Shown here piece after piece: positions 16,259 through 61,802 of a DNA stretch of 64,000 bases. The first letter of the stretch is position 1. Each line of letters starts with the position of its first letter. Position numbers and translations under genes: made by a program. The stretch lies in assembly GCA_030374765.1 (NCBI GenBank), contig JARGXX010000001.1, positions 620,001 through 684,000 of the forward strand. The letters are read 5' to 3'. Origin of the DNA: Agarophyton chilense (Eukaryota > Rhodophyta > Florideophyceae > Gracilariales > Gracilariaceae). The notes beneath the pieces are model-generated. The model made no database searches. It worked only from the letters and a program-made list of their open reading frames with translations, and was not told the origin of the DNA.

Positions 16259-16271
16259 CGCGGGGGGGAGA

Positions 16272-16348
<77 letters not shown>

Positions 16349-17810: not shown

Positions 17811-17837
17811 CCTACTCGCCGCCAACGCCCGTTGCCT

Positions 17838-29738: not shown

Positions 29739-29915
29739 GGGAGAAGGGGAGAGAGGGAGCGAAGAGGGAGTGAAGAAGAGGGAGCGAGGGGGGGAGGGGG
29801 ATGAAAGGAGCAATGGGAGTGGAAAGGGCGGTCAGACGTGGAAAGGGTAAGGGCGCGGGCGCGACTTTGGATAGGGGAGCTACGGAGCGAAGGAGGTGGG
29901 ATGTGGGGTGTGGGG

Positions 29916-29918
<3 letters not shown>

Positions 29919-29954
<36 letters not shown>
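29919..29954 (+). repeat. Poly-G run, 36 bases
   Basis: Uninterrupted G homopolymer about 180 bases upstream of the PPP4R4-like ATG. It can form G-quadruplexes. The exact length is likely to be unreliable in any assembly. Confidence 0.9.
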
Positions 29955-29955
<1 letters not shown>

Positions 29956-30053
29956 GGAGATGGTGCAGCGCGCGCGGTGGGGGTGAGGGCGGGCGAGCAG
30001 CGCGCGTGTGAGGGGTGTGGAAGGGGCGCCAGTAGATGGTGGCACGGGCTGGT

Positions 30054-30061
30054 GGGGGGGT

Positions 30062-30148
<87 letters not shown>

Positions 30149-30151
30149 CGT

Positions 30152-30185
<34 letters not shown>
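30054..30185 (+). repeat. Poly-G tract, 132 bases with few interruptions
   Basis: G runs of 7, 37, 49 and 34 bases separated by single T, single A and a CGT triplet. Followed directly by TGGCGG and an A-run. On the other strand it is poly-C within the presumed promoter of the downstream minus-strand gene. Confidence 0.9.
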
Positions 30186-30186
<1 letters not shown>

Positions 30187-30755
30187 GGCGGAAAAAAAAA
30201 GCGCGCCAGCAGGCGACAAGCGACAGACGGCAGACGGTAGACGGCAGACGGCAGGCGGCAGCCAGCGCGAGGGCGGCGGCGAGACGCGGCGCAGCAGCGC
30301 CAGCGTTTACCGTTGGCACGCGCTTGCTGATGGCCACGCGCTGCCGCCGCCTCCGCCCCGTCCAATGGGCGCGCGCCACGTCCAGCATAAGCATAGCGCC
30401 AGCGTCGCCACGTGTGTGGCGCTCAGCCGCGCAACTGCACTGCAGCGCGTGTGAGTGCGCGCGCGAAACGTTTCGGTGGCGCGTGCCGCTAATAACATGC
30501 GTGCGCACGCTATTTGGCAGCGCCAGCGCCGCTTTACAGCAGCGTCGCTTTGAATTTTCAAACGCGCCCAAAACACGCGCGCGCGCTTTGTGCTGTCATC
30601 ATTCGCGCCATCATTCGTGCCATCATTCGTGCCATCATTCGTGCCATCATTCGCGTCATCGCCATCCGAATGGTGAAGGGTGATGCCTTTGTTCGCCACG
30701 ATCATGCTTGCTCAACTTCTCGGGTTGCCCATGATGACGCCCAGCCTACCTACAG

Positions 30756-32621: not shown

Positions 32622-32902
32622 CGCGACCGCCTCGCGTCACAGCTCTCACCGCCACGCCGTCCCCCGCCCCACGTCTTGCGCCTTGGTCATTTGCATTCAA
32701 CATGCGCACAGCCGCTCCTGTGCTTGCTTGCCCGCATACACATGGCACCGAGATGCTGTTCGTTGCCACGTGCACACGTGGTGTCGTCCTTCTGTTCATT
32801 GCCAAACCATGAAACGTAAAGCGCCACGTGCTTTTCCATTCGTTCTTTGCGATGACGGTTGACACCGCTCTGCCCACCGTCCGGCGCCTTGACTCACAAG
32901 CT

Positions 32903-33298
32903 ATGACGCCACCGATGATCGCGCGCTCGCTTCTCCGCGCGTCCTCCTCCCACGTCCGCCGCGGCTCCACCTGGGCCTCCTCGCGCTGGGCAGAAACCAT
33001 CCGAGCCCAGTCTAACATTGACACCCTGGAAGATCCCCCCACGCGCCCGCTCCCCGAGCAGCATGAGCTCGGCGAGGGTGTTTCCGACTTCTCCAACTGG
33101 CTGGAGAAGCATGAGGATGTCTCCAGCGCCGAGGCGGTGGGCGGCTTTCTCGGCATCATGGGGCTCTGTTTCGCCATTCATCAGTACGCTACATCGCGCG
33201 TGAAGAACGGCCAGTCTACTTTTACGTTGCGCGAATTCCCCACCGTTCAAACCTCAATGCCGACTTGGAACGGCGCTAGTCTCGTACGGAAGGAATAG
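32903..33298 (+). CDS. Small single-pass membrane protein, probably mitochondrial
   Basis: A 131-residue protein. The N-terminus MIARSLLRASSSHVRR followed by GSTWASSRW is basic, hydroxylated and acid-free, like a mitochondrial presequence. A hydrophobic segment at about residues 75-95 (AEAVGGFLGIMGLCFAIHQYA) is preceded by an acidic loop containing PTRPLPEQHELGEGV. Size and layout resemble accessory subunits of respiratory complex I, but I cannot name one. In-frame ATGs at 32,852, 32,903 and 32,915 are possible starts; 32,903 or 32,915 gives the best presequence. It is divergent from the TPR gene, about 280 bases away, so the two probably share a promoter region. Confidence 0.65.
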   Translation: MTPPMIARSLLRASSSHVRRGSTWASSRWAETIRAQSNIDTLEDPPTRPLPEQHELGEGVSDFSNWLEKHEDVSSAEAVGGFLGIMGLCFAIHQYATSRVKNGQSTFTLREFPTVQTSMPTWNGASLVRKE

Positions 33299-33862
33299 CT
33301 TTTCCTTTTTTGCCCCTTTACGTGCACGCGAGATGGGCTTTATCGCCAATATGCACCCCGACTCGTTATATGCTTTCGCCGCAGCCTTTTGAGTCGGCCA
33401 ACAACCATCTGCCCATTTTTAACGAATCGAGAGCAAGCCGAAGCAATTTGCGCTAGTAAACCTGCACTGCCTCCACTGTTCAAATCCTACCGAGAACTTG
33501 TCTGCGCCTTCCGCTGCCAGTCCGTGCTTTCTGAACGTAGGAAAAGTCCACAGCGATACTAACGCAATGCTTTTCTTTCAAACCCTCATGGTCAACTCCA
33601 TCTTCACCGACCTCGCTAACTTGAGGCTAGATCTATATTCCAAGTTGCACTATCTATGCCAGAACTCGGCGACCTTGATGAATACTGTTTGTTTTGTGAA
33701 ATCAACACTACCTTTATAGTACCAGTACCGTATTGCATTCCCGGGCAGCGTTTTGTATGCATACCTACTTAACCTCCCTTGTCTCGCCCTTGGGGTCTTG
33801 CTTCTCCCGTTACCGAAAGCCGGTAAGCCCCAACTGTCAACTTATTCTCCACGTGGCCTCCG
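33299..33862. other. Convergent intergenic region
   Basis: Between the membrane-protein and zinc-finger genes, which converge. Short frames only; nothing else seen. Confidence 0.45.
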
Positions 33863-35596
33863 TCATGCGGCGTTTCCTGTGCCGGCCGAGTTCAAGATCT
33901 CCTCGCAAAGACGCAAATATGTCTTGTTGCTCATTACTATCATGGAATTCCCCTGACCGGCCAACAGTTGCTTGCGAATTCCGAGTTGGCGCCAACGCTC
34001 TTCCAACTGGGACTTCGCGTTTAGATCTTTCCCGACTCTGTTTTCTTGTTTTCCCATGAGCGCTACCATCGTTTGGTCAACGGTGACCGTGCTCACAAGC
34101 CTCTGCACAGTTTCCAGTTCACGCAGCGCCTCGCACTTCAACGCAGCAACAGGGTTATCTGCTGGTCCTGTCGTTTGCGAGCCTTGCGCCTTTGCATAGG
34201 CCTTCCCGCGGCGACTTCCACGTTGCTTCCGCCCTCCTAATCTCCGTCTCTTCTCATGTACGCGCAGGTGACGGGATAGGCTTGAATGCCACATGAACGA
34301 CTTACCACAATGGGGCAAATCGCATCTGAAGGGGAATTCATCGCGATGTCCCCTTTGGTGCACCGTGAGATTGTACTTCCTCGCAAACCGTTTACCGCAC
34401 CCCTCGTAGTCGCAAAAATGTACATCGGCTGGGTTCATGTCTTCAACTCTCTTGCGTCGCCTCTTCGGTTGGCGACCCTCACCCTCGCCCTTTACGACCT
34501 TTGTCGCCTTCCTACGCGGCGATCGTTTGCGCTTGGCAGAGCGCTTCACTCGCTTTGCGACCGCGGGGTTGCTCGGCCGTTGGTGTGCTGCGGTGGGAAC
34601 TGTGCGTTTATTCTGGGAGTCCCCATCGTGGCCTTCTCCCAACGTCGTTCTGTTGGAACCTCGGGCCTCACCATGGATAGTATCGCGCGCAGTCTCAGTG
34701 GAAACTTGTGCTTCCGTGCCCACACGAATTACTTGATGCGTTTCCCGGAGTGCCTTTCTTGGAACTTCTCTTGCAATTCCATTTCCAATCTCGTTCGGGG
34801 GTTTGAAATTCAAAGCTGCGGGCGGCCTTTCCGCACACATGCGACGGTCTTTGGCAATATCATGGGCCAAGTATTCATTGACCGAACATCTGCGTGAACG
34901 ATTTTTCACAAGCTTATTTCGGTCTTCAAGGGCAAGAGGTGCAAACATCCGATCGATATAATCTTCATCGGACATATCGATCGGAACTACGCCATTGCCA
35001 TCCTCGACGACTTCGCTCTCTCTAATTTCTGCTTCCTCGGGAGAATTCGAAGAGAACTCGTGTGTCAGTGTTTCAATAAACTCTTTCCAGGTTGGCTCAA
35101 GGGCTGCCCCAGCGCCGTCTTTCCTGGGACGTGGTGCGAACATCAAGTCCATGTAGTCTTCGTCTGGAAGACTGGCTGGGTCAATGGGCTCTTGGGCTTC
35201 TACCACCCTCCCCGGAATAGATTCACTAGTTCTACCGTCTTTATCAACCTCATATATCTTTCCTAGCTCCAGCACGTCCTCAAAACGCTCGTTCACGTTC
35301 GGAAGACCTTCAATGACAGGGTCAGTGCCGCAATTATTATCGTTCCCATCCACAGCTACGCACTGTTCAGTATTTCCTCCTATTGCAAATGTGGATCTTC
35401 CATTTCTCAAGATGCTGTCAAACACAGCCCCTGCATCTTCACCAAGCGACCCCTCGATTGATTTTCCAGGATTCTCGCCATTTTGCGCTTGTTCAACTCC
35501 AGGCAATGATTCAGCAACAGCCGGTAGTGGGTACACCCCTGGAAACCCGGCTGTTGCCACAACACTTGCTTCGAGGCGCTCGGGCATCCTGTACAT
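33863..35596 (-). CDS. Two-finger C2H2 zinc-finger protein, probable transcription factor
   Basis: A 577-residue protein with two adjacent C2H2 fingers: C395, C400, H413, H417 (FCDYEGC...HQRGH) and C425, C430, H443, H447 (FRCDLPHC...HLRVH). The linker is of TFIIIA/YY1-like length. A very basic stretch (about 347-385, KRVKRSAKRKRSPRRK) and RKQRGSRRGK after the fingers are likely nuclear localisation and DNA-contact regions. The N-terminal 230 residues are acidic. They carry a duplicated motif DEDYMDLMFAP (145-155) and DEDYIDRMFAP (210-220), which may be a binding site for a partner. The ATG at 35,596 is the start (alternative four codons in). The target genes are unknown. Confidence 0.88.
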   Translation of the reverse strand: MYRMPERLEASVVATAGFPGVYPLPAVAESLPGVEQAQNGENPGKSIEGSLGEDAGAVFDSILRNGRSTFAIGGNTEQCVAVDGNDNNCGTDPVIEGLPNVNERFEDVLELGKIYEVDKDGRTSESIPGRVVEAQEPIDPASLPDEDYMDLMFAPRPRKDGAGAALEPTWKEFIETLTHEFSSNSPEEAEIRESEVVEDGNGVVPIDMSDEDYIDRMFAPLALEDRNKLVKNRSRRCSVNEYLAHDIAKDRRMCAERPPAALNFKPPNEIGNGIAREVPRKALRETHQVIRVGTEAQVSTETARDTIHGEARGSNRTTLGEGHDGDSQNKRTVPTAAHQRPSNPAVAKRVKRSAKRKRSPRRKATKVVKGEGEGRQPKRRRKRVEDMNPADVHFCDYEGCGKRFARKYNLTVHQRGHRDEFPFRCDLPHCGKSFMWHSSLSRHLRVHEKRRRLGGRKQRGSRRGKAYAKAQGSQTTGPADNPVAALKCEALRELETVQRLVSTVTVDQTMVALMGKQENRVGKDLNAKSQLEERWRQLGIRKQLLAGQGNSMIVMSNKTYLRLCEEILNSAGTGNAA

Positions 35597-39333: not shown

Positions 39334-39881
39334 TGTTGTAAACCAAAACGGTAGCAAAGGGGTGTAAGATCTGTCGATTCTAGGAAACGCACGATGGGCT
39401 CGACCAATAATAGTAGATTGAATACACCTGTAAGGTGTGGCAGCACCAGCCACTGAAGGTTGCAACAGGAACGAGCGGCATACTGAGACCACGTTGTTAA
39501 ACTGTGATGTACAGCGCATGCGGGTCCGGAAACCCGTGAAGACACTATACTTACCTTTTTGGTCGACTATACAAAACAAAAGGAGTGAAAGTAGTATAGT
39601 AGGTGGTTGAATTTGCGATAATCACCGGGGTGGCCATGCTTGGTGAAGATGTATATCTCATCGGCCACCGGACCTACGATAGTGCTCCTCCTCCCGTAGC
39701 CACGAGGAGGTTTGCTTGAGGTGCGCCATCCTATCTACTAAATTCTATATATCTAATACTAAATTAGCGACAGGATCAACTAATTGCTGGCAAAACCACT
39801 GTAGTACACGGCGAATGCCGGCAACCATCTAGTTCGAACACGTGGAATCATTTCATGCTTAATGTAGCTCATTATACTACA
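39334..39881 (-). repeat. LTR-like repeat (family LTR5), copy 2, inverted
   Basis: The reverse complement aligns with 7,600-8,148 over its full length, including the TGTAGTATA(A/G)TGAGC start, the GCCGTGTA(G/C)TACAGTGG block, ATCTTCACCAAGC and the GACCGTCG/GACCCGCATGCGCTG region. Divergence is considerable (perhaps 25% by eye), so both copies are old. Flanks do not give a clean five-base duplication. Confidence 0.55.
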
Positions 39882-40414
39882 GATATCCCTCCTAGCGACA
39901 GCCACGCCCCGTGGCTGTACCTTGGTGCAGCGTTCGCCAGTGCTTTGTGCCTCAGTGCAGCAGTCGCCAGTGCGGGATGCATTATACCGTTTGGGTAACT
40001 CCGCGAGGTGAGCCGAACGGTTTCGGCCACAGTCGTAGCGCTTGAGGTTCAACCCCCGTGCTTGATCGTAACTGCTCAGCAATTAAGCATCCCTTGAGGG
40101 TTGCCCAGATTGGTCAGGAGATCGTGTACCAATCGGTTTTGTCGCATTATTCGGTTCTTTTTTCGAGTGCCGGAACGTCATACCTCATCAATGTCTTCTC
40201 CGTTTCTTCTTCTTCTTCTTCTTCGCGTCGGACCTTTCTGGTGTCATCCTGTCCATTGGTATTCCTTCCCTCCTTCTTTTCTTTTTCTTCTCGTACCGTA
40301 TCGGCTGTATTGCATTTCGTTGGAATGCAGGCGAACTCCTCGAAACCTCGTGGTGGAAGTCACATGTCCACGGAAGGGTCAACTGAACACGGTGTTGGCT
40401 CTCGCCGTGTGTTA
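39882..40414. other. Unclassified repeat-rich sequence left of solo LTR3
   Basis: A 533-base stretch with short GCAGC/GCCAGTG repeats near 39,930-39,990 and a TTC run (40,203-40,227). It is the original sequence into which the LTR3 element inserted, and it continues at 41,208-41,280. No gene or element family recognised. Confidence 0.35.
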
Positions 40415-41280: not shown

Positions 41281-41904
41281 GGTCGTAAAATCACCTCTGG
41301 GGTATGCTACTGTCTTGTCTCGGGAGCGTGGTGACGCTCAACCATAGGGACCGTGGTGACGCTCAACCTTAAAAGGTAGACGTAATAAACTTCGATGGTA
41401 GCAGGGCACCGTGAAAACCCGCAGGGGCAAACGGCGGGGAAACTAGCCTATACCGTGTAGGTGAACGATGGTAGGCGTCGACGTGCGGGAAAGCATGTGT
41501 GGTAGTTGAGAAACAATGAACCAAAAGGTATAGGCGTGGCCCAAGTGGTGTATGTCTTTATCAGACTAGGGTGGAGGGGGTGCAGTTCCCTATATGCAGT
41601 GGACTGCACTCTCCAGGTCACCCGGGAGGTGCCAGCAAGACACGGTATCTGACCTAGTGTCAGAGACCTGGCCAGCACTGGCTACAGTGCCAGGTGGCCA
41701 CTCCACTACTGTACTATAATAAATACAATTACAATTACAATTACTCAACCAGAAGGTACATGTTAACACTACACGTGGCTGACAACAACTAGAGGGTAGC
41801 TCGCCTGGAGCTGCGTGGCCGATGATCCCTCGCATCCATCACTTACAAGTTCAGTGTATTATATTGACAAACTCAAATGTCAAACCTTCTGCCACTATAA
41901 GACA
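41281..41904 (-). repeat. LTR2 copy 2, 3' LTR of element 2
   Basis: A 624-base inverted copy of the LTR at 8,748-9,380. Its end next to the element's interior is TGTCTTATAG on the minus strand and is preceded there by the purine tract AGAAAGGGGG, as expected upstream of a 3' LTR. The outer end is slightly altered (GGTCGTA instead of TGTCGTA). The hairpin cluster seen in copy 1 is kept (about 41,640-41,700), with a mismatch in the main stem. Confidence 0.8.
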
Positions 41905-41911
41905 GACCCCC

Positions 41912-42809
41912 TTTCTTGTAGGACAACGCTTGGAGCGGAGACACCACGAAGATGTTCGGGATCTTCCTCTCTTGAGAGACACGCCTCAGGCGGAGGAGGC
42001 GCGTCCCAGCGGAGCAGAGAAACAGAGCCACTCTGGAAAGGCACAACAGAGTCGGGTGTAAGACAGAGGCCAATCCGGCGGGATATACCTAGATTGTTTA
42101 GGTGAGCACGGCACAGTCTGGTGTGTGACCAATCCTAGGCGGAGCGGTATCACGGCGATTGTCGGAAAAGGAGCGAGGAAACACTCGTATGAGGCGGACG
42201 AGCGGGGTGAGTGAGGCGGCCACCCACGAGAGCCAAAAGGGAGAACAAGAGGAAAACGGGGGTGACACCCTATACAGGGGTGAGACTACGACAAGTTTCG
42301 GCGATTAAATATGAACCCAAGGTGGTGGTAGCACTTTGGTCGACAGAGGGGTTGATGAACTAATGTGCGACGGGCGCTCACGTAGTATGCGGTGAAGACG
42401 CGCCGAAGGCGAATAGTTCAGAGCCAAGACTCCCCCTTTGGGATCTCCCAAGAGGTTGTTTGCTGGGGAGCAGTGCTAAACCTCCTAAGTAGTGTGGCGC
42501 GCGGCCCCTGACAGTGGGCGCGCGCCCGAAATATAGACACTAGATAGCGATAGCGTAGCTAAATAAATACTAAGTAATACTAAATAATACCAACCATTAG
42601 GTAGAATCCGGGCCATGTGTGGCACTCCTCGCACTCGAGCGTCGGCATCCGTGCAGTCCCCGTGTTCCACGAGTGTGCACTTCCGGTCCTAACCGGCAGT
42701 CGGCACGCCATAGCGGTATAGCTTGTCATAGACCAAGCTAGTCCTCAAGCGAGCGAAATCTCTAAGTCCTGGGAAGGAACCCCCTTGAAGGGCATTGTCC
42801 TTCATTTCT
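41912..42809 (+). mobile_element. Solo LTR, family LTR1, copy b (LTR 41,917-42,804)
   Basis: An 888-base copy of LTR1 (ends TGTAGGACAA and TTGTCCTTCA). It is flanked by the identical five bases TTTCT (41,912-41,916 and 42,805-42,809). It inserted a few bases inside the 3' LTR of element 2. Same orientation as copy a at 10,060-10,948. Confidence 0.93.
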
Positions 42810-43030
42810 ACCCGTGAGACACGCCCCGTGTCTCCTTCCGTCAAACCATGGAGGTATAGCGAGCGACCGCGGCGCGGGCATCCGAGTGGTGTCGCACCTT
42901 TCTCGGCTTCTCAAACTTCATTTTCCTCTTATGTCCTTGCGCGCGCCGTCCCACCTGGTCGTTTCCACGGCTCGACAACCCTTCCGGTATTTCTGCCCTT
43001 AATCATCGGCGTCGCGACCTTAATCGTGCT

Positions 43031-43697
43031 TGTAGTATCCGCTCTAACGGAGAGAGCAGACACCTGCGACAGCGTTCGGACTGCCGATGGGTCGCTTGCG
43101 GCGAAGGAAAAGGGGTGGTAGAGCTACAACATCAGCGAGCTGGAAGTGGGGTGTAAGGCCACTACTTGCCAGCGAGGGTGAACAGTGCAACTGTAAAACG
43201 TTGATGGAACGTAGGTACAAGACGGCTCTTGAAGTGGTTGGGGGCTAACTATCTATTATAGCTCGTCCGGATCTCCGGTTAAGGAATCCTAAGCGAGGAA
43301 CAGAATACTCATGATGCCCATGTTGTCTTCTTTACTTGGAGTCGGCGCTCACCTCTGGTGCACTATATACTGTGTGCCAGGGTGAGTGCCCCAATAAACA
43401 TATAAATAATACCCAGTGGTCAGCCACTTAGCCAAACCACTGTCTGGGTACGGTCCCTAATGGACTTAAATCTACAAAGGGTAGTAAAACCTGCCACGTG
43501 GATCGCCACTACCTGCGCCGTTGCAAGCCACTCCACTCGTGATACCACGTGTTCCACTAATGTACCCTGCCTCCTGGCATTCTACGCGGTGTGCCGTTTC
43601 ATATCGCAGGTATGATGACATCACTCACTTATAAGTTCCAACCGCGACTTCGCGAAAAATCATCCTATCGGATTCCCCGACATAGTAGAATACTACA
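43031..43697 (-). repeat. LTR4 copy A, 3' LTR of element 1
   Basis: 667 bases with inverted ends TGTAGTAT ... ATACTACA. It contains ACTATATAC near 43,361 and the shared GGGGTGTAAGGCC core near 43,148. It differs from copy B at about 30 positions and from copy C at about 24 by eye count. Confidence 0.93.
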
Positions 43698-43721
43698 TAC
43701 CCCCCTCGTTAAGCGCGAACC

Positions 43722-44294
43722 ATGTGGGACGCAAGAAGCGTTTATACGCAGTCGGACCGGTGTTCTGGGTACTCATCGTCATCACGAATTCCTCGCCGCA
43801 CGACCAACTCTTACAGTTCTCAACAGCATTCTGTTCCTCACCGCTCTTCAGCTCGATCTCTCGCGATGGATCCGAACGCCGGGTCCAACCCGCTTCAGCC
43901 CTCCTCTGAGGATGTGCCTTCTGGGGCTCCGTCAAACACTGCTGGTTCTGCGTCGCAGCTTACTGCTCAACTCAGTCCATACCGTTCGTTCCCCACCCCG
44001 TACACCGGATTCTGGTCGGTACCTTTACCTCAGCCAACCGTGGCTCCGATGCCGAACGCGGCTTACGTCGCCTCTGCGGGTGTGATTCGAGCTCCTTCTC
44101 GTCGGGCTCAGCGGAGCTACCCGCACCCTGCGGATTTCTATGGACGAGATTTTCTCAACAACGTTGAACCTTTCGCGCAAGCGCCCTGGTTTGATCCAGT
44201 TGCTATCCGGGATGACGCGTTGATACAACAGTATGTACACGGTGGGTACTTCCCCGACGGTATTCCGGAACACGCGATTTATAGCGACGACTGA
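43722..44294 (+). CDS. Opposite-strand coding region of element 1, first part
   Basis: An open plus-strand stretch just inside the 3' LTR of element 1. The likely initiation codon is the ATG at 43,866 (MDPNAGSN...). The encoded protein is Ser/Pro-rich at first, then richer in aromatic residues (YPHPADFYGRDFLNNVEPFAQ, given in part). A near-identical copy lies at 61,827-62,399 in element 3. No domain recognised. It belongs to a fossil element and I do not attempt to join it to the second part. Confidence 0.6.
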   Translation: MWDARSVYTQSDRCSGYSSSSRIPRRTTNSYSSQQHSVPHRSSARSLAMDPNAGSNPLQPSSEDVPSGAPSNTAGSASQLTAQLSPYRSFPTPYTGFWSVPLPQPTVAPMPNAAYVASAGVIRAPSRRAQRSYPHPADFYGRDFLNNVEPFAQAPWFDPVAIRDDALIQQYVHGGYFPDGIPEHAIYSDD

Positions 44295-44525
44295 TCGAGC
44301 CATATTGCTTTGCCAGACAACGCGATTGCGCGATATTCAACGGAATCTTTGTCCGAAGCCCGTACGCGGTTCACCAAGCTGATTTACCGGCGTCTTCACC
44401 GCTTCAGCAGTACGGTTTTCCTCCCGCAGGAATGGTAACTAGATACCTGGAAAGCCCGTACCGACGGTGAAGGTTACTCGTATATCGAGACACTCGTTGA
44501 AGTCGATGTTAGCGATTGGCGCGGT

Positions 44526-45548
44526 GTGCGCAGTGTGCGTGATGCAGCTCTCTGCTTTCAGCAACCTCTTCTCCGTGCGGAGTTCCGCTTCCTTCGAAAG
44601 CGTGACATTCCCTATTGGGATTATCCGCGTCGGGAACGTCGTACTCGATCACGTTTGGGCTATTTGGTGCCGTATCAAATGATCGAGATTGACTGCATCC
44701 GGCGGAACGCGCGCTTCGGGCGCTACATCGGTATTCCGGAGCATTGGGCGGCGATCGAGAGTCCTCGTGGTTGCCCTGTGGAGCTCCCACCGGCGATCTC
44801 CTACATCAGGTCCGCGTTGCTTAAGGACCCGTTCTCGGGATATTGGACGGTGGTTTATACCGAGTTTATCGCCAAGATGGCCGTCTTCCCCCTGTGGGAT
44901 GCTTATGATACCTTTACAGTTTGGTACATGTCGCCCACAGCGCGAAAGTATGCGAGAGAACTCGATCTTTCCCTTGTCCTAGGATCCCGTGCGAACCATG
45001 CCGACTTCCTCCGTCTTGTGGATGTAATCGACGGTGTCGACTGGTCTGGAGTGCCAGCTGATCAATCCGCTCGCAGAACCCGTGCAAGACACCACGACCA
45101 TTCTCCTGGACGAACAGCAAGTGCTGGAAATCTTGTTTGGTACGACCCCTGGACGCGCCAGTTGATCACCTCCGAGCAGGCTCGCTTTCTTCGGGAGAAC
45201 CCGCGTGACATGCCACCGAACCAGCTTACTGGATACGTGTACGATGCTACTCCATCCGAGAACGGAGAGGAACCGTATGACGAAGCGCCGGGAGCTGAGG
45301 CTGAACTCGGTTACGAGGACGAGCCAGAGCTGGCAGGCGTATCGACTTCCGTCGATCAATCTGCAGCGGCGGGAGGTGCTCAAGAGTACTCTCATGGGTT
45401 TACCGAACAACCGAGTGCAGTGCCGGTCAAAGATCCAGGCTTGGATTTGCTGAGGCAGTTCCTCTTAGATGCGGGCTTTCCCGTGGACCAAGTTGAGGGT
45501 GATTGCGCACAGCTTCTTGCGAACCTGCGTGCTCGCACGTCTTTTTGA
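44526..45548 (+). CDS. Opposite-strand coding region of element 1, main part
   Basis: The longest opposite-strand open stretch (340 codons), antisense to the direction of pol and lying between the pol end and the 3' LTR. It is rich in Trp, Tyr and Arg in its first half (RKRDIPYWDYPRRERR, GYWTVVYTEF, FPLWDAYDTF) and acidic in its second (EPYDEAPGAEAELGYEDEPE). It begins without an ATG, so a spliced or otherwise upstream start is likely. The copy in element 3 (62,631-63,653) differs at one residue. Short matches to the corresponding region of element 2 suggest an inherited gene. Plant gypsy elements of the Grande/RIRE2 type are known to carry antisense ORFs at this location; no sequence relationship is claimed. 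Confidence 0.65.
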   Translation: MRSVRDAALCFQQPLLRAEFRFLRKRDIPYWDYPRRERRTRSRLGYLVPYQMIEIDCIRRNARFGRYIGIPEHWAAIESPRGCPVELPPAISYIRSALLKDPFSGYWTVVYTEFIAKMAVFPLWDAYDTFTVWYMSPTARKYARELDLSLVLGSRANHADFLRLVDVIDGVDWSGVPADQSARRTRARHHDHSPGRTASAGNLVWYDPWTRQLITSEQARFLRENPRDMPPNQLTGYVYDATPSENGEEPYDEAPGAEAELGYEDEPELAGVSTSVDQSAAAGGAQEYSHGFTEQPSAVPVKDPGLDLLRQFLLDAGFPVDQVEGDCAQLLANLRARTSF

Positions 45549-45599
45549 TGATCCTAGAAAAGACTCCTAGTCAACACCCTTGCGGTGAAATCTTGATGC

Positions 45600-45722
45600 C
45601 AATAAAACTCCGGTGACTTCGTGTCTTCACGTTCTCTTCTTATCTTCTAGTCTTCATCTCTTGTCGCTTCTCGAGTTCTTCAATCATCTCTTCTCGCTTC
45701 TCGAGTTCTTCATAGGTGATAA
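45600..45722. other. Junction between convergent coding regions of element 1
   Basis: The antisense frame ends at 45,548 and pol ends near 45,723, leaving about 170 bases. These contain AATAAAACTC (45,601) and two tandem copies of a 24-base unit containing CGCTTCTCGAGTTCTTCA. This may serve 3' end formation of either transcript. Confidence 0.4.
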
Positions 45723-48700
45723 TCAGTAAATGTCCTGTGATTGCGTGTTTTCACGTTTCTTCTTCATGACTTCTTGTTTTCTTCTCGCCTTTCGAGTTTT
45801 TACTACCTTGGTAGCCCATACTTTGAAATGGGATGTGCCCATGAGCCCGACTATCGAGGAGTCGATCTCCCTGAGGAGTGGTAATCGCATGCGTCGATGA
45901 TATCGCACGAGTTTCGAACGGAGGATATGAGCTATAGGTTCCCACGTATCCGCTTCCGGCGGAAAACCGTACCAACGGACTCGATACAGTAATTCTCTAA
46001 TATCTTCATGCTCGCCATGTTCACATATGCGATCCATAACATATTCCTGGGCGTTTCCCAATTCTTTCGCTGTTGGCGCGAGACTCCAGTAACAGGTTTG
46101 AAATGTCTTAGGGCTGACCCAAGCGTCTCTGTGTTAGCAGTCTCCGCGTCGCTAAGCGTTCGCTCGTCGACTAACTGTCGTTCTGCCCGCAGGGGCAGTG
46201 TACTCATTCCTTGAGAACCTTTCTCAGATAAAGAGCTATCCTGTTTTCCAGGTTCCATAGAAGCGTACTTCTTGCTACTTCTCAATTTCATTCGTGGATG
46301 AACTTCCTTCGGTTTATCCGATTCTGACCGCTTTTGGGTGAATGATGGTGCTTGCACCACGACAGGAGGCGATACCTCTTCTTCTTCCTGCCCACGAGGG
46401 ATGGGAGCCCATATGGGCGGAACAGCGAGTGGCGCTTCACCTGACGGTTCAGCCTGAAGCGGCAACGGCGCGTGTTCGCGTGCATTAGTTTCCAAGTCCT
46501 TGGGGCCAAAGACCAAAACATCTTTCCTGCTGTCAGGTTACATTTCTGTACTTATGGTTGTGCGCGTGCCACGGGGCATATCCCGATACTTCGGAAGCTG
46601 TCCGTGATTGGCGTACGCAACCGCTGGAGGTGGGAGATCAGGAGCTTTCTCCTCCTCTCGAGCCATTGGTTGCGGTTCACTCTCCCCAGAGTCACTTGGG
46701 CTTTTGTCTTGACGTTCCGTCGCACTTGCCTCCTTAGTTCTACCAGATACCTGAACTTCCACTTGCGGGTCAGGCGCGACTTCAACGCGATCGCTCGATA
46801 CACGTTCAAAGTCCTCACCTGTCTTGATGACCACTGTGTCTTCATTAAGGTCCACCACTTTGAAGGGTCCAGCCGCTATCGGCAACAACTTATAACGACA
46901 TTCTTCCTGTTTGTCCGGTTCTTCAACTCGCACGAAGACGTGACCTCCTACTCGGATTGCCGGATTTCCTCTTCGCCTTCTGGCGTCATAGTTTCGCTTA
47001 TAGCGAGCTTGCATCTTCGATAACTGTTTAGCTGCTTCTTCCGCTCTGGCCTTCAGGTCATTCCTCCATTTCAGATGGTACTTAGCCGGGGTCGGCGCGT
47101 CCAATTCTGTCTCGTCGTCGAGCGCAACCGGTAAAGCCGGAGGGTTACGTGAGAGCACGAGGTCGAACGGTGCCGTCTTTGTAGAGGTATGCACGTGCGT
47201 ATTGTACGCCTAGCACAGAGTATCAGTAAACATGTCCCATTCTTTCGGGTGGTCCGCGATGTAGTGTTGTAATGCTGCTTATCAGCGTGCGGTCGAAACG
47301 CTCCACCTGACCGTTGCATTGCGGATGATAGGTCGTGGTAAACACGTTTCGAATGCCCATAATGCGGCAAACATTCTGAAAGAACTTTGCAACGAATTGC
47401 TTCCCATTTTCTGATAACAGAACTTCTGGTGGTCCGTATATAAATACCCAGTGTTTGATAAACGCCTGTGCGATAACGGTTGCGGTTATTCGCTTCAGCG
47501 GCACATTCCGCACTAGCTTCGAGAAGCGGTCGGTGATTACCAACAGGTAGCGATAACCTCGCCTTGAGCGAATCAATTCCCCTAGGATGTCGATGCAGAC
47601 GTATTGTAAAGGCGCTTTTGCCTGGAATAACCTCATCGGTTTCCGCTTCCTATAAAGCTTCACGCGATTCTTCGCACATGTTGTACACAATCTCACTGTA
47701 GTATGGCAGTCCATTGCCAAATTAGGCCAATAAAAATCAATTCTTAGAGTCATGAACAACTTCGTTCCTCCTGGATGACCAGACAGCCTACTGTAGTGTG
47801 CCAGATGGAGTACTCGACTCTTCAAGACGTATGGAATCACGATTTGATTATGCTTTTCGACATGTCTGAACAGTATTCCTCGTGAATCGAGTGAAAAGGG
47901 GAGCTCCACTCCCCCGTTAAGACGAGAGCGTATCGACGCACAAAACGAATCGGCGTGTTGCTCATTGAGGAGCTCAGGGCACGAGATTCGGTCGAGTTGA
48001 ACTGAAGGGTCAGTGTCTGCTAATGCAAGGAACGGGTCTGCATCCGAATAATCATCAAGGGTCTCTTGTTCCTCTTCTTCAAAAGATGGTGAATGGGTCT
48101 CCATGTAGAAGCAAGGTATCTCTTCATCCATTTAGCCTTGGGTTTTGCCTAGTGTTTTGAGACGCGATAGCGCGTCAGCTTGGACATTGGCCAATCCCTT
48201 CTTATACTTCACTTCACTTCGAAATCGAATTCAGAGAGGCGTAAGCGCCATCGTGTGAGACGACCAGACGGGTCTGTAATGGACAGTAACCATCGTAGAG
48301 ACGAATGATCCGTGTTGACGGTAAAACGTTCTACTTGGAGATACGGTCGCAATGTGGTTAGAGCCCAAACGACTGCAAGGCATTCCTTTTCTGAAACTGA
48401 GTACTTCTTCTCAGCTGCGTTCAGCGATCTTGACCAGTACCCAATGGGTTTGCGTTCACCATCAGGGTGTGTTTGAAAAAGGGCACACCCTACTTGGTAC
48501 TGGCTAGAGTCGGTATCCACTGAGTATGGCAGGTTGGGGATGGGCAGCGCCAAGACTGGGGCTGTAATAATCTTTGTTTTCAGCGTGTCGAACGCTTCAA
48601 CTTCAGCTTGTCTGAATTGTTCCAGCTGTACTGGTTGTCCTTTACGCAGCTTTGCGTTGAGCGGTGCCTCTATATGCGAGTATCGCGGCACGAATCGTCG

Positions 48701-51700
48701 GTAGACGTTGCAAAAGCCGAAGAAAGAACGCAATTGCTTCTGTATCGACGGAGGTTATACTTCGCGGAGAGCCGCTGCTTGTGCCTCTTGAATGGCAAGC
48801 TGTCCCGGTTTGATCACATGTCCTAAGTACCGGACAGTGCCAGCGAACCATTCGCATTTCTTGAACTTAAAGGTGATACCCGCGCTCTGTAGTGCTTTGA
48901 GGATCTCCTCGACATGCCGTAAATGGCTTTCCACATCCTGGGAAAAGATGATCACATCGTCCAAATACACTAAACAAGTCTTCCACTTGTATCTTGAGAG
49001 CAAGATGTCCAGAGTACGCTGGAAAGTAGCCAGTGCATTCGTTAAGCCAAAGGGAATCCTTTTGAAACGGTAGAGACCGGCGTGACACGCAAATGCGGTT
49101 TTGTCGTGGTCTTCTTCCGCTACAGGCACCTGCCAATAGCCAGAGTTGGCGTCCAACGGGGTGAACACGTTCGCTTCTCCTAAGCTGTCAATACATTCGT
49201 CCATTCGAGGCAACGGGTATGTATCCCGAACTGTAACTGCGTTCAGTTTTCGATAATCGATACAGAATCGTAAAGAACCATCAGGTTTTGGGACCAGCAC
49301 CACTGGTGAGGCCCATTCAGATTGAGCTGCTTCGATTACTCCTTCTTCCAGCATTTTGCTGACAATCTCCTCCTCGATTTGGCGAGTTCGCGGTCCCGCT
49401 CTGTAGGGTGGTTGGGAGATGGGTCGTGACTTTGGGACCAAATCAATGTGGTGTTCCGTAGCGGAGATCTCTCCTAGTTTTCTACTCCACGTGGATGTAT
49501 ACTTCTTCAGCATAGACCTAATCTTCGTTCTGTAGTGTTCTGACACATGTGCTAAGTGTAGCTCATCGACCAGGCTCTCTGGATCCTTTGCCGTTTGCAA
49601 TTGATCTCCAGACGGAGTTTGCAGTTCTTCGTCTGTGTCACCGACATGGGTTAATCCCAATACTGCTGCGGTAGAAATATGAGTAGGGACCACCACTGTG
49701 GGATGAGGCAAAGCTGTTGCAACAACCTGATTCTTCGGTATCTGATAATCGTTATCGGTGAAGTTACTCACTAGTATCCAAAAGGGGCTACCAGGATCAA
49801 CCTGAACAATGCCGTTAGCGACTAGCAATCCACGGGATTCGTCCCAGTATTCGGTTGAATTGCCACGAGTCCGTGTCGTTCTGTTCTTACTTGAACCCAG
49901 GTTTGGGTTTGCGCCTTCAGCATGGCACTCTTCGCTGCTCTAATCCTCGGCGAGACACGTCCTCGGGATTTCCCGTATTCCATAGATGGTGGAAGTGGAG
50001 GTGCTTCGGGGCAACGATGCATGGCTTGCGAACAATTGGTACCATTGATCCATCATCTAGTTCCACTAGTTTTCTTCACGGGCAAATGGCTTCGACAAAC
50101 TTGTCGCAATAATCAAATCCCAGTACCACTAGTGCAGCTTACGTCTTACAGACGATGAAGTCGACTAGGACTACAAAGTGTCCCAAACGCACCACGAGTC
50201 GAACTGTTCCCAGTGTCTTCACAGCATTTTTGTTGGCATCCCAAATGTCCGGTAAAGGACCGTATCTAATACGTTCTAAGTCAGCAGGAGCGAGCTCCGA
50301 TTCCCGTATAAAGTTCGGACCAGCACCTGTGTCCAGGATAGTCAATCGACGAGATAACAGATTCCTGTCAGAGCCGAGGTCGTCATAGACCTTATAGTTT
50401 CTTTTAGACATTACCATGAGGTAACTTTCCCGTTTTGACGGACAAGTAAAACGTCTCCAAGGACGATGTAACCCACAGTCAAACTGTACTCTCTTTCCGT
50501 CCGGCGGATTGATTCCGTACGGCGGAAATTTGGGAGGCCTCAAGAGAATCTTGGGCTTCCAAGCGCGGGAGCAGGGAGGCGAGCTCTCCCTGGTCAGCAC
50601 TACGGGATCGACTAGTGCCGATCCCCTAGGGGCTCCCTCACTTAGTTTACCGGTTGCACCGGCTTATTCGCCTCAAAGGCGGCTCTTCCTACCGGGGTTC
50701 AGGGTTGCAACACTTCAGCATTCTGAGCAACCGGCTTGTCCGTCCGGCGCATTGGTGTCTGAGAAAACCAACTTTTGGCTTTCCAATACATGCCCGCCGG
50801 TACGCGGCTCCTTTCCTCTTCTGAGAGTGCTTCATAATTCGTCATGATACGACTCAGATCCTTTGCAGGAAGCGTGCATTCTGCACTCAAATGGTGTTTT
50901 CCATAACATGAATAACAAATCCAACCGTCACGACGGTTGGTCAACATAGGTTGTGAACGGCATGCCGTGCGAGTATCCACCCATCCGGGTTTTCCGTTCT
51001 TAAAACCTCCTTGTGGTGGCACCGTGTAGGGACGGTACATAGGGCGACGGCCCTCCATAGCCATTAGGGCTTCCTCGTCCTGAGACTCCGAGTGTGGGAG
51101 ATCCACTGTAGGTACAGAAGACTCCGTATATTTCAATGAATGGACCGCCTCCTCATGTGAGTCACTCCCTTTGGGTGCCAACGACGAATCTCGCGAGTCA
51201 ACTGGAGATTCCAGATGTAGCAGTTTGCTGCGCTGATTAACTCTGGCGGAGATCTTCTCCTTACCCATTGAGGTTCCAAACGCCACTGAACGACGGGGGC
51301 TACCACGCGCTCTGGCCGCGTCTCCTTCAGCTTTCGCAAACTGAACTAACTCCAAAAAGGAGACTCTTCCATGCTTCTATCGATATCGAGCTACCAAAGA
51401 CTTGATGCTCGGGTCCAGCCCGTCGATATACAAGGTAATCTTGTCCTCCGTCGAGTGGACGTTTCCACAGTGGACTGAAGGTTTGTTAAGCCTTGAGCTG
51501 TACTCAGCTTCGCCCTCCTCAGGCTTTTGGGTCACATCCCTTAGGTCCAGGATCGCCTGACGTATCGCGTTTGAAGTCGCGTAACTTCCCAGCAAATACT
51601 GCACCGCTTCTGGCCATGAGGTAACGCCGCCTTCATCGTCTGTCAATGATACGCATACGGAACGATATTGCTCTAAAGCAAAACCCTTCAGGAAGTGTGG

Positions 51701-53010
51701 TAAAGACACAAATGCCTGTGGTTCACTCATCTCTAGAGTGTCTGCTTCGGCAACGAATCGAGTGAGAAACTCGATAACGAAAATGGGGGTCTTTCCATCA
51801 AATATTAAATCATTAAGGCCGATCGTCAATCGTTTGATGTGATCCTTCACCTTCGCGGTTTCGCGTCCTGAGCGCTTCTTGCTCTTCACCTTCAGACGGT
51901 AGTACCTGTAATTCAGGACCTTCTGATAAAGCGGATTCGTGCACGGGAGCACCTTCAATCCTCTGTAAGGTGAGCCTTTTTTTCTCACTAACCACGAAGA
52001 CGTGTTCTTCTTCCGAGATCAAGACCTTCGATAACCATAATCACTGTCGTCGTCATCTGACGTATCTGAATCATCAGAATCATCAGTACTGGAACTGGAG
52101 CCCTCCGTACTTGACGATTCATCACTCGAATCACGTGCGGACTTCCGCTTCTTACGTCGTGACTTCGACTTCTTCGAACGAGCTTCCTTCAAAGAAGCTC
52201 CTTCCTCTTCCAGCACGACTGGTTTAGCAGCAGTCTGCGCATAAACTGCCGCCTCCAGGCGTTCTAAACGAGGGTTAACTCGAGTAAGGACTTCCTCTAC
52301 ATCCACGGTGAAGCCGGGTAGCGCATCGGGCGTATTCCCGTACCTCTCCAGTAGATGGTTCAAAACCTCACGTAGTGTTTTCACTGATGCAGAGACCTGC
52401 TCCCAATCGTCTTGACGAACGAGTGCTTGATGCACACTGCATCATTGTTCGACATCAGCGATAAGAGAAGCGATCTGCGATTCCGACGCAACCATGCGCA
52501 CACGCGAAGCGCTCGACTCAAACTTGAGACGACGCACTTCCCTGCGCAAATCATCCTCTTCTTGAGGTACTACGAGCTCAGGGTCAATTACGGCTTCTGT
52601 GGTGGGCGTGACTGCCGCTGCCCCAGGGGCCGGTACATCCGAGAGATCTCGTTCATCATTCACCGAGCGTGAGCGCGACATCGCTTGACGATACAGCCGC
52701 TCTCCGGCTTCAACAGATGAGGCGAGCCTCGGTTTCGGGGGTGGTCCCGCAGGACCGGGGCGACCAGTACTAGACTGGCTTCGGGTCTACGGCATCCTAC
52801 ACCAAACCTGAGTCCAGGTGCGAACCAAATGGTGTCTTCGACTTCTCGACCACGTGTTCAACCACGATGAATTCCGCAATTGCCGGAGGTGGTTTAATAA
52901 ACAATAACTGTAGTGATTCCACTTCTTCCAAGTATCGATATCGATTCCACGTTCCAGGAGAGAATTGCTCAGTGCAGCTGACCACAATGGTTCTAAGTCG
53001 GGAGACCACT

Positions 53011-53677
53011 TGTAGTATCCGCTCTAACAGAGAGAGCAGACACCTGCGACAGCGTTCGGACTGCCGATGGGTCGCTTGCGGCGAAGGAAAAGGGGTGGTA
53101 GAGCTACAACACCAGCGAGCTGGAAGTGGGGTGTAAGGCCACTACTCGCCAGCGAGGGTGAACAGTGCAACTGTAAAACGTTGATGGAACGTAGGTACGA
53201 GACAGCTCGTGAAGTGGTTGGGGGCTGACTATCTATTATACCCCGTCCGGATCTCCGGTTAAGGAATCCTAAGCGAGGAACAGAATAGTCATGATGCCCA
53301 TGTTGTCTTCTTTACCTGGAGTCGGCGCTCACCTCTGGTGCACTATATACTGTGTGCCAGGGTGAGTGCCCAAATAAATATATAAATAATACCCAGTGGT
53401 CAGCCAATTAGCCAAACCACAGTATGGGTATGGTCTCTAATGGACGTCTAGCTACAAAGGGTAGTAAAACCTGCCACGTGGATCGCCACTACCTGCGCCG
53501 TTGCAAGCCACTCCACTCGTGATACCACGTGTTCCACTAATGTACCCTGCCTCCTGGCATTCTACGCGGTGTGCCGTTTCATATCATAGGTATGATGACA
53601 TCACTCACTTATGAGTTCCAACCGCAACTTCGCGAAAAATCATCCTATCCGATTCTCCGACATAGTCGAATACTACG
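53011..53677 (-). repeat. LTR4 copy B, 5' LTR of element 1
   Basis: 667 bases beginning TGTAGTATCC and ending ATACTACG (last base changed), immediately followed by the duplication GTGCT. It is much closer to copy C (about 8 differences) than to its partner copy A (about 30). I could not match the sequence next to it to a tRNA primer site. Confidence 0.92.
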
Positions 53678-53689
53678 GTGCTGTCCGGC

Positions 53690-54976
53690 TTTCCTTGAAG
53701 GTTTCCTGGCTTCTCGACCTTTCAGGTTTCTTCTACCTTTTAAGGATTGATGCGTGGCGCCTGTTGGGCCTGAGATTGCGTCGATACAACCAGTGAGGTG
53801 TTGGACTAGGTCCGTGGTGGAAGCTTCCGGATGTGAGACCTTATTGGTGTACTTCGGGAGTCAGATGTCCCGGAACCTAGAGCGGTATTACCTCATTTGG
53901 TCGATTGCCCTCTCAGAGTGGACCGTGTTGGTTGCCATACTGGCTCTGAAGGCCGCCCGTTACGGTATCTATTGGGATTGTCGTAGTCGCGACTCTGACT
54001 TATACCGAGATGGTGTTTAACCTGTAGGTCGCATCTTCTTCATCTTTCCGAGGGTTATCCAGGATATTTTCCGATTTGGTTAGGAGAACATCGTTCAGGG
54101 GACCGATTATACCGTGAAGGATTTGGACTCGTATCTCGAGCAGACCAAGAATTACCATTGGGATTCCCATCAAGGGTGGGAGGCTTTCGATCCTGAAACT
54201 TGGGAGATTGTGCCTCGCCACGCCCAATATTATCCTGGGGAGCCTCCTGTTTATGGAGCTCCCGCGAGCCCCGAACCTTATCAAGGTACTCTGGAGACAC
54301 CAGTTGGTAGTTATGCTGGTCCCTTCCCGTCCGAGTCGTTACCTCAAGGTCGTAAGTCGCCTATCCCTACGGGTGTGACTCCTACTCAACCGAGCTCCTC
54401 GCGAGTTTCTGGTCCATTTCGACGTCTGTTGGCGGGTATTGCTCGTCCTCCGCCTCAACCTATGATGGTTTTCCGGCCGTGGTCGGTTTTCTGGCTGGAA
54501 TTCGCCAGGCATGCGTCACCAACTTTCAGAGAGCTGGGCCTCCCTCCGTAGTTGCTTCATTAACGCTCCTTGAAGGTTTTCTGCCGCGCCATGCGCAATA
54601 CATGAAGGCGCTGAACCAACTTTGTGAGTTCCAGAATCAGTTCCAGTTGGACATGTACCAATTGGCCATCTGTCAGGTTGCAAATCTGTCGAGCGTCTCT
54701 GCTGCTGCACCATCTAATTCTTTAACGGATCCCCTTCAACGTGCTAACTTGAACCCTGCCGTTATTCAACCCGCTCCGGCGGTTCCTCCCGTTCAACCTC
54801 TGTTGGTTTCGCCTCCTCTCCCCAGTGGCGGGGCTACCGCTCCTTCGCTACCTCCTAGGTCAATGGTTCCTGGCTTTTCTGCCAGTTTTCCTTCGTGGGT
54901 AGTCAATAACACGGGTCTTCCCGATCCCACTGCTCCTCAACCGACAGGTCCTTCTACTCCCGGATTCGAGTGCTAG
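53690..54976 (+). CDS. Opposite-strand coding region of element 2
   Basis: Plus-strand coding-like sequence between the pol end and the 3' side of element 2, mirroring element 1. Short motifs correspond: SEWTVLVAILALKAARYG...WD with element 1's GYWTVV...KMAVFPLWD, and WEAFDPETWEIV with VWYDPWTRQLI. The last part (about 54,480-54,976) is a helical segment followed by a long Pro-rich tail ending PGFEC. Broken in a few places. Function unknown. Confidence 0.55.
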
Positions 54977-57900
54977 ACTTTCTGTCACTTCACCTTTGAG
55001 GTTCGTGTTGCGGCCGCCTGCCACCTGTCTTTCTTAGTATATCCTTCTTCACGTAAATTGTTGTCTCTTCTTGTCTCCTCTACTGTTACATTCGGTTGTT
55101 CTTCGTCTCCTACCTTGTACGTAATCTAACACGCATATGCGTTCACATTCTGCGGAAAACGACGTCTTCTCTCCCTCTTCCTTAGGCCTGAGTACCACGA
55201 AGGTCAAAGGTTAGCAGTCTGCAGGCATCGGCTCCTTGCGACGGCGCCAATACCTGATACGGAAGTGTGGAGGTATTGCGGCTGGGGTTTCTAGGGTGTC
55301 CCCTTCTGGCCCCCAGCCATACCACCTTACGTTGTACTTCAGACCATTGTAGGTTCGCGTGTGGTCTACCAAATGGTCAACGGGGAATTCCTCTGAGGTT
55401 TGGTCCTGATCTTTCGGGGAAACGCTACCTCGAGGGTTCGTATGTTCCGAGTTGGGAGCTTCGTGTGTGGGAGCCGGGTCGGGAGCTCCCGCTGTAACCA
55501 TTAGAGGTTCAATTTCCGTCCCTGTTAGAGGGTTGTAATACGGATAATCAAGTTGAAGGTCATCGTTCACCTCAATTGGGGTGGGATCCTCCGAGGGTCG
55601 AGTGCGCAGAGCTACAGCTCTGGGCTCTTGGGCTGAGGTGCCTGCCTCCATGCGATGTTGAACCGTTTCAGGTGCTACCGTAATACGGTCAATTGATATC
55701 TTATTCGGTATTCCATCTTGTTCAACCGTAACGATGTGGTCTGATGCGTTCAATACCTTATAAGGTCCCACTGATTTGGGTAGAAGCTTCGAGTTGATAT
55801 CTTTGTCAATAGCTTCATCGTCTGCTTCATCACCCGGTAGTGGTCTTTTACCTGAAGGTGGGTTGTCTATGTAGACATATTGTCCCGAAGATACAGAGAC
55901 CACTTTGGTTACCCTGCGGTCGTAGTCGGACTTGTACCGCTTCTGGGCTGCAGTGAGGCGGCTCTCAGCATGTTTGAGAGCCCTCCTCAACCTCAAAAGG
56001 GTATTTTGCTTGACTTGGCCAGGGATCAGTGCGCCAGCTGCAGTGCTGGTGGTATGATCTCCCTACACTACAATACCTGGGGGGTGTCGCGAAAGAACCA
56101 ACTCAAAGGGAGTGGTCTGCCTCGACTGGTGTCCCTGAATGTTATAGGAGTAGGTGAACGGTTGCACCAGCTCATCCCACCCAGTTTGGTGCTCTTCCGT
56201 ATAGTGTCGTAGCCTTGATACCAATGTGTGGTTAAAGCGCTCGACCTGTTTGTTTGTCTGCGGGTGGTAGGCAGTAGTGAAAGAGTTCTTGATACCCAAG
56301 AGGTTACAGACTGCTTCGAAGAACTTCGATGGCAGGTTTGAACCACTATCGGTGAGTAGGTACAGGGTTGCACCATACGAGTAGATAAAATTGTTGAGGA
56401 ACGCGATCGCCAGCTTTGTTGACTTCGTATCCTTTAATTGTATCGCTCTCGTGAGCTTCGAGAACCTGTCGGTGATCACTAGAATGTGCTGATACCCATT
56501 CTTGGTCTTTGGAAGTGATCCTAGGAGGTCCATCGCAACAAACTCCAGCGGACCCGCTGCTGGAAACATCTTGAGGTATTTTCGATGCTTTCGAATACCA
56601 CCGCGGGTACGAACACAGGATTCGCATTGACCTACAAAGGTATAGACATCATGGGCCATATGAGGCCAGTAGAACTGTTACTTCAAGGTGTAATACATTC
56701 TGGTGGCACCGGGGTGTCCCGATAGTCGCGGGTAGTGCGCGATATACAAGACTATCGGGCGAAGCGCCTTCGGAACCACCTTTTGAAGGCTATCAACCAA
56801 GGTTGACCTTCTCACTATGTACCCATTGTGGTCCACGTCGAATTGTGATCATTCGAAACCCATTTGGTCAGCAAGGGTTCTGCCGTACGCATCCAGGGCC
56901 AGTTCTCGTAGAAACTCCTCCCGGGTTATGGGCATGACGTTCGTTTCCTCTAGGGTCAGTATCTGCGTTGCCATGTCGGTGTTCCGCAAAGCACCTTCTT
57001 CAGGTAAGTTCCAACATCCTTCTAGGTGTTCGCCGGTACCGTTTCGGTTTGATGACACCAAAAAGTAAGGGATATCATCTTCCACAGGTTCTGTCTCTAA
57101 CCTTGAGGTGTTTAAGCGTGACATAGCATCCGATATGTTGTGCTTGATACCTGGACGGTACTGTACGTCATATTCAAACTCCGACAGTCTCAACCTCCAA
57201 CGGGAAAGTCTACCAGACGCATCTGCGAGTCCGAGGATCCACTTTAAAGAGCCGTGATCCGTGCGCAACGTAAAGCGCTCACCATAAAGGTATGGACGGA
57301 GCATCAACATGCTCCACACTACTGCTACATATTCCTTCTCGGTTACCGTGTAGTTCTGCTCCGCCTCATTCATAGCGCGGCTCCAGTACCCTATAGGTAA
57401 TTTGTCTCCATTGTGCTGCTCCTGCGTGAGACCACAACCAATTTGGGCATGTGATGCATCTGTATCCAGCGTGTACGGTAGACCTGTTTTCGGTAACGCT
57501 AAGATTGGTGGCGACTACAGCGCTCGTTTCAATTCCTCAAAGGTATCCATTTCTTCGTTCGATAGATTCTCAAACCGTTCAGGTTCACATTTCTGGAGCT
57601 TCTTGTTGAGGGGAGCCACTATTTTCTCGAATCCCTTCACGAAGCAACGATAGACGTTACATAAACCTATATAGGATCGTACGTTTGTCTGGTATCGTGG
57701 CAACTTGACCTCCTGTACGGCTCTAATGTGGCTCGGCGCAATCTCTAGGGTACCAGGGCCTATGATGTGGCCCAGTTATTCAACCGTTCTGGTAAAGAAG
57801 ACGCATTTGCGTATCTTCAGCGTCACCCCCGCCTCAGCTAGGAGGGTTAGTACGGTGCGTACGGGAGCAAAATGCTCTTCTACCGATCTGGAACAGATGA

Positions 57901-61135: not shown

Positions 61136-61802
61136 TGTAGTATCCGCTCTAACGGAGAGAGCAGACACCTGCGACAGCGTTCGGACTGCCGATGGGTCGC
61201 TTGCGGCGAAGGAAAAGGGGTGGTAGAGCTACAACATCAGCGAGCTGGAAGTGGGGTGTAAGGCCACTACTTGCCAGCGAGGGTGAACAGTGCAACTGTA
61301 AAACGTTGATGGAACGTAGGTACGAGACAGTTCGTGAAGTGGTTGGGGGCTGACTATCTATTATACCCCGTCCGGATCTCCGGTTAAGGAATCCTAAGCG
61401 AGGAACAGAATAGTCATGATGCCCATGTTGTCTTCTTTACCTGGAGTCGGCGCTCACCTCTGGTGCACTATATACTGTGTGCCAGGGTGAGTGCCCAAAT
61501 AAATATATAAATAATACCCAGTGGTCAGCCAATTAGCCAAACCACAGTATGGGTATGGTCTCTAATGGACGTCTAGCTACAAAGGGTAGTAAAACCTGCC
61601 ACGTGGATCGCCACTACCTGCGCCGTTGCAAGCCACTCCACTCGTGATACCACGTGTTCCACTAATGTACCCTGCCTCCTGGCATTCTACGCGGTGTGCC
61701 GTTTCATATCATAGGTATGATGACATCACTCACTTATGAGTTCCAACCGCAACTTCGCGAAAAATCATCCTATCGGATTCCCCGACATAGTAGAATACTA
61801 CA
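61136..61802 (-). repeat. LTR4 copy C, 3' LTR of element 3
   Basis: 667 bases, TGTAGTAT ... ATACTACA. Differs from copy B at about 8 positions and from copy A at about 24. The last about 50 bases match copy A exactly, while most of the rest matches copy B. Confidence 0.92.

Follow-up and report, generated by a model that had tools for sequence, protein, structure and literature searches.

Long open reading frames (ORFs) that run antisense to gag-pol, lie between pol and the 3' LTR and recur in many copies have been described in plant Ty3 elements as antisense additional ORFs (aORF-3R). Examples in the relevant sections of PMC7264820 and PMC11963269 are maize Grande gene23, rice RIRE2 and Silene Retand. 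The same sections describe the Grande antisense protein as nuclear, with an antisense promoter of its own, and report proposals of nuclear or regulatory roles for the antisense proteins of both Grande and Retand (PMC7264820, PMC11963269). Retand is there a non-chromovirus of flowering plants (PMC7264820, PMC11963269), and the marker of its antisense protein is the TRP28 domain (PF04195). Three non-plant cases share single features with the gene considered here. Boty of Botrytis cinerea, likened by layout alone, is an LTR element said in part of PMC7264820 to have an antisense ORF at the same place. MchSLE-1 of Mytilus, a mollusc LTR retrotransposon, is likened only by the antisense mRNA reported for it (PMC10974842). 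HBZ/APH-2 of HTLV is also an antisense gene, and the accounts in PMC11963269 and PMC7264820 place its antisense promoter inside the 3' LTR, whereas for the red-algal gene such a promoter is something we infer. No description of a red-algal antisense gene was found in open-licence PMC papers, a set to which most subscription journals do not belong.

How does the red-algal locus compare? The window, the whole 64-kb stretch of Agarophyton chilense DNA that was analysed, holds a complete element (E1) and parts of two others (element 2, or E2, and element 3), with the following features:

43026-43030: target-site duplication GTGCT, left
43031-53677, sense strand minus: element E1, recognized by its LTRs and target-site repeat
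43031-43697, minus: left LTR of E1 (3' LTR in sense), ends TGTAGTAT...ATACTACA
43713-45548, plus: antisense ORF of E1, between pol and the 3' LTR
44130-45227, plus: conserved globular core (predicted), matching residues 140-505 of copy L021
45601-45606, plus: AATAAA, possible polyadenylation signal just 3' of the antisense stop
45726-46133, minus: pol C-terminus including the chromodomain (Chromo E=4.7e-8), lying tail-to-tail with the antisense ORF
47223-48131, minus: integrase of E1 (rve, 7.2e-13; Integrase_H2C2)
48209-48754, minus: RNase H part of E1 pol
48755-49939, minus: reverse transcriptase of E1 (RVT_1 E=1.3e-33)
51380-52018, minus: gag of E1 (Retrotrans_gag E=1.4e-7)
53011-53677, minus: right LTR of E1 (5' LTR)
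53678-53682: target-site duplication GTGCT, right
53846-54976, plus: what is left of the E2 antisense ORF, partly deleted and with a broken frame
55211-59002, minus: E2 pol (chromodomain-like end below cut-off, integrase, RNase H, reverse transcriptase)
61818-63653, plus: antisense ORF of element 3, near-identical to that of E1, stops at 62397 and 62541

E1 carries gag, reverse transcriptase (RT), RNase H, integrase and, at the C-terminus of pol, a chromodomain, all flanked by LTRs, and so has the predicted domains of a Ty3 element of the chromovirus type. That label rests on domain content, and the E2 chromodomain falls below the Pfam cut-off (Chromo E=0.033, against 2.9e-8 in E4). The original prediction had read the sense direction as minus, which holds: gag, RT, integrase and chromodomain are all encoded on the minus strand, and next to the left LTR stands a run of C, which reads as a purine tract on that strand. 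The LTRs, 667 bp each, are mismatched at 30 of 667 columns. A frame of 611 codons (43713-45545; first ATG 43722, terminal stop 45546-45548) occupies the plus strand between pol and the 3' LTR. Shorter ORFs of 190 aa (from its own ATG) and 340 aa are parts of this single frame; the 340-aa ORF, which had been predicted as a long antisense coding region, is its C-terminal part. The window copy carries in-frame stops at 44292 (TGA) and 44436 (TAG), and the full frame is free of stops in copies that include L018-L021, L023, L031 and L037. AATAAA follows closely behind the antisense stop in 29 of 30 E1 copies; behind the ORF of L066 and of L070, none was found.

The other two elements in the window differ in what they contribute. 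Element 3 does carry the gene, as proposed, although it is no independent evidence: it differs from E1 at 6 of 2198 compared internal bases and has both in-frame stops at the same codons. Element 2, in which coding-like sequence had been noticed at the same place and strand, has a related gene; the window copy itself is not intact, having lost ~1.4 kb relative to L066. Element 2 had been credited with clearly different LTRs, yet no LTR pair of its own was found within the window, and the E1-type LTRs flanking it belong to E1, as marked by the GTGCT target-site repeat, and to element 3. Comparison of the LTRs at 43031-43697, 53011-53677 and 61136-61802 gives a separate observation: E1 left and element 3 differ at 24 positions, all in columns 188-615, and E1 right and element 3 at 8. 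This pattern, with the near-identical internal parts, suggests duplication plus gene conversion.

The antisense gene is widespread in A. chilense. Families were collected by searching the genome (80 Mb, 135 contigs) with the antisense ORF itself; as scoring was limited to the best candidates, all copy counts are minimum values. E1-type sequences gave at least 111 protein-search matches, 86-100% identical to the copy in the window (111 of 1640 candidates scored), well beyond the three elements of the window, and a search with the relative P0009 returned E1-type copies again. The E2 counterpart has 839-842 codons in many copies (at least 55 matches; 54 of 1367 candidates scored). A further family, E1b, is ~71-82% identical to P0006 (labelled A. 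chilense), besides its own 100% match over P0006 residues 1-406. E4 gave at least 77 matches at 41-44% to a Gracilariopsis protein, and 54 of the 77 among the matches listed have no stop. Two families belong to the E2-like group: E5, with frames of up to 852 codons, is 44-48% identical to P0015, and E6 is 33-38% identical to it. By a division on protein identity levels, with E5 and E6 known from protein matches, the genome thus holds at least six related families (E1, E1b, E2, E4, E5 and E6). In all 60 loci inspected, from three families, the ORF is antisense to, and tail-to-tail with, the pol chromodomain, as expected of the genuinely antisense gene that had been proposed. These are 30 of 30 E1 loci (L009-L038, two of them the window copies), 29 of 29 E2 loci (L040-L068) and one E4 locus with flank; not all are independent, since L018-L021 share one and the same ORF sequence. 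Such a layout, antisense to gag-pol and between pol and the 3' LTR, is the one of the aORF-3R class, with the 3' LTR beside the ORF seen for E1 only. The class is further characterised by presence in most copies of a family and in more than one species. What was observed on that count is many copies in A. chilense, from families collected through the ORF itself, and a relative, P0012, in Gracilariopsis chorda.

Is the antisense frame under selection? When E1 (L021) is compared with E1b (L072), differences over 397 codons fall 99/87/219 by codon position. For this pair dN is 0.27 and dS ~2.3, near saturation, giving a dN/dS of ~0.12: between families, the frame is under purifying selection. Differences common to at least 4 of 28 aligned E2 copies (28 of the 29 loci, one being too short) fall 41/25/64 (p=1.4e-4). 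Other signals within families are weak: shared E1 differences fall 40/22/35 (p=0.07), the E1 pair L021-L023 has a pN/pS of 0.79, and the E4 pair has 15 synonymous and 21 non-synonymous differences (p=0.05). Private mutations have no codon-position bias in either E1 (148/171/150 in 30 copies) or E2 (219/254/228 in 28 copies), as expected for dead copies. Hence, the selection signal comes from the shared and between-family differences. Constraint from the sense strand is rejected because no pol frame overlaps the ORF and an in-register sense frame would vary most at first position.

The protein has relatives beyond A. chilense. Searches of 5.8 billion proteins, in each of which the ~8000 candidates sharing most words were scored, gave at least 13, at least 2 and at least 9 matches. 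In the first of them, relatives at 30-52% to E1 include G. chorda (P0012, 34%) and sequences from the sources 'ena' and 'lgn'. Over all of them, these two sources account for P0008-P0011, P0013, P0016-P0018, P0020 and P0021 ('ena') and for P0007, P0015 and P0019 ('lgn'), mostly on short contigs. Between E1 and E2, the antisense proteins are 20-23% identical, compared with 47% for RT, 59% for RNase H and 45% for integrase. A first comparison of E1 and E2 with thin profiles was weak. With profiles of 18 E1-like and 4 E2-like sequences, hhalign gave 97.8% and a score of 109.3 over 209 columns, against 21.9 for the reversed control and at most 22.8 in 20 column shuffles, so the two distant families are homologous as judged from their profiles. 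Together with the codon-position bias, this bears out the protein-level conservation across families on which the original prediction depended; as copies also occur outside the window, neither of the two conditions set for its refutation holds. In the tree, an E1-like clade faces an E2-like clade whose rows are long branches, and E4 pairs with the G. chorda protein (support 94/90, just under the tool's star). From this pairing, the families probably predate the split of Agarophyton and Gracilariopsis, or the protein moved between the two genera. Across 19 sequences drawn from both clades, seven columns never vary, five of them charged (R227, D244, E253, R312 and E325 in L021 numbering). Tryptophan content is 1.8%-3.2% in 10 proteins, making 'tryptophan-rich' true in a mild sense only.

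In line with the original proposal, the protein reached no cut-off in the domain libraries searched. Nothing in Pfam rose above its cut-off, NCBIfam gave no match at E<=0.1 and PHROGs gave none at E<=0.01, and a PDB sequence search found no credible relative. TRP28 (PF04195) was matched neither at E<=1 in 11 members, nor in L070, L066 or P0015, nor at E<=10 in 6 N-terminal fragments; a genome search with PF04195 also gave no match, its controls being silent too. The red-algal gene thus has a layout known from plant Ty3 elements and a protein that appears distinct from TRP28, and its elements carry a pol chromodomain, unlike Retand. Nor, since no Pfam match rises above cut-off, is there a sign of an HBZ/APH-2-type regulator, by sequence rather than structure. 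A model of the L021 core (366 residues, 20 sequences) is mostly helical, with a pLDDT of 91.6 and a pTM of 0.90; for full P0009, the values are 70 and 0.63, and the tails are disordered. Foldseek against PDB at E<=0.001 returned no match for the two models (best E 1.3 and 9.5, the latter for the L021 core), and VIA-align of the core found none among 7 chains. The core is therefore a confidently predicted fold lacking a PDB match, which is no proof of a new fold. A SAP/Ish1-like C-terminal hairpin stayed below cut-off (best Ish1 18.5 bits against 26.6, E=0.0026, in 1 of 10 tails), and neither a convincing NLS nor a known DNA-binding domain was found.

What might the gene do? That it is a functional antisense accessory gene of the element is close to certain. 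We lean toward the whole explanation, in which red-algal Ty3 elements of the chromovirus type carry the antisense region as a real gene for a protein with an accessory and most likely nuclear role. Open antisense frames span 611-852 codons in many copies. The gene would be inherited with the elements, and its mRNA would start inside the 3' LTR, since 24 bases separate the inner edge of that LTR from the first ATG of E1, and end between the ORF and pol. The product would be an accessory protein acting on the element's own cycle, most likely in the nucleus, where it might regulate sense transcription or silencing or help the integration complex. Such a nuclear or regulatory role, proposed by analogy with the Grande and Retand antisense proteins and with the known roles of retroviral antisense genes, is by itself slightly less likely than not. 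More tentatively still, red-algal chromoviruses may have gained their antisense accessory gene independently, or kept it from an old ancestor; its product would have a fold unseen in solved structures and would work inside the nucleus on how its element is expressed or silenced, as a convergent counterpart of Retand and Grande and of retroviral regulators.

Other functions have to be weighed against a nuclear accessory role. A second structural protein encoded antisense, either as a constituent of the virus-like particle or as a factor in its assembly, would suit a well-folded, helical core and a protein that evolves faster than pol (~20-23% against 45-59% identity between E1 and E2). It is nonetheless unlikely, given that a normal gag with a Retrotrans_gag domain is already present in sense and that no capsid-like fold was matched, although a missing match does not exclude one. 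The same fast change relative to pol would fit an arms race, as expected of a factor that counters host RNA or chromatin silencing. According to part of PMC7264820, antisense transcription of a repeat invites RNA silencing. The antisense transcript would itself also give double-stranded RNA. The function is, however, guessed from position and rate, and we regard it as improbable. That five of the seven invariant columns (19 sequences, both clades) are charged could mean that R227, D244, E253, R312 and E325 form the active site of an enzyme. These residues may instead be structural salt bridges, and with no enzyme family or fold matched, an enzyme is very unlikely.

Position and openness of the frame suggest two further readings, both weaker. 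The env gene sits between pol and the 3' LTR, the same place as the antisense ORF, and an E2 member has a hydrophobic helix, features that could be taken to indicate an env-like protein or a captured host gene. An env-like protein is defined by sense orientation and a transmembrane segment, and is disfavoured: the gene is on the opposite strand, and none of the 8 E1-like members measured has a transmembrane-like helix (hydropathy over 19 residues peaking at 0.93-1.45), the two more hydrophobic E2-like proteins reaching 2.47 and 1.58. No cellular domain family was matched either, so that env or capture is highly improbable. A chance open frame, or the mirror of a sense-strand gene, would leave private mutations free of codon bias, as they are, and L021 does have a 271-codon frame open on the sense strand opposite the ORF (positions 775-2607 of that copy), also found in several other E1 copies. 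In L023, however, the longest sense frame is 103 codons. It is in the antisense register that third positions differ in excess, and conservation of the antisense protein extends across genera. The between-family comparison refutes this reading, which has next to no probability left. The red-algal case has broader implications. It shows that antisense genes under selection at this position occur beyond flowering plants and can encode their own protein family, perhaps with its own fold. Since LTR elements are annotated mainly around gag-pol, antisense genes are, in our judgement, easily missed. Thanks to the intact copies, how an antisense retroelement protein acts can be tested directly.

Several minor observations concern the rest of the window and the E2 copies. 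Left of E1, a further repeat (8747-10951 and 41282-42807) consists of inverted and direct pieces at 89-95%. The NCBI protein P0014 matches pieces of this repeat as well as the E2 antisense ORF, and the repeat may hold the 3' end or LTR of E2. The E2 copies form two subtypes, told apart by an indel of ~86 bp close to where the antisense ORF ends (L066 2605-2611 versus window 54955-55042). An inverted repeat pairs 7599-8144 with 39339-39882 at 76% identity. G+C content rises to 0.58-0.71 over non-element genes at 14000-18000 and 28000-34000, and is ~0.40-0.55 elsewhere.
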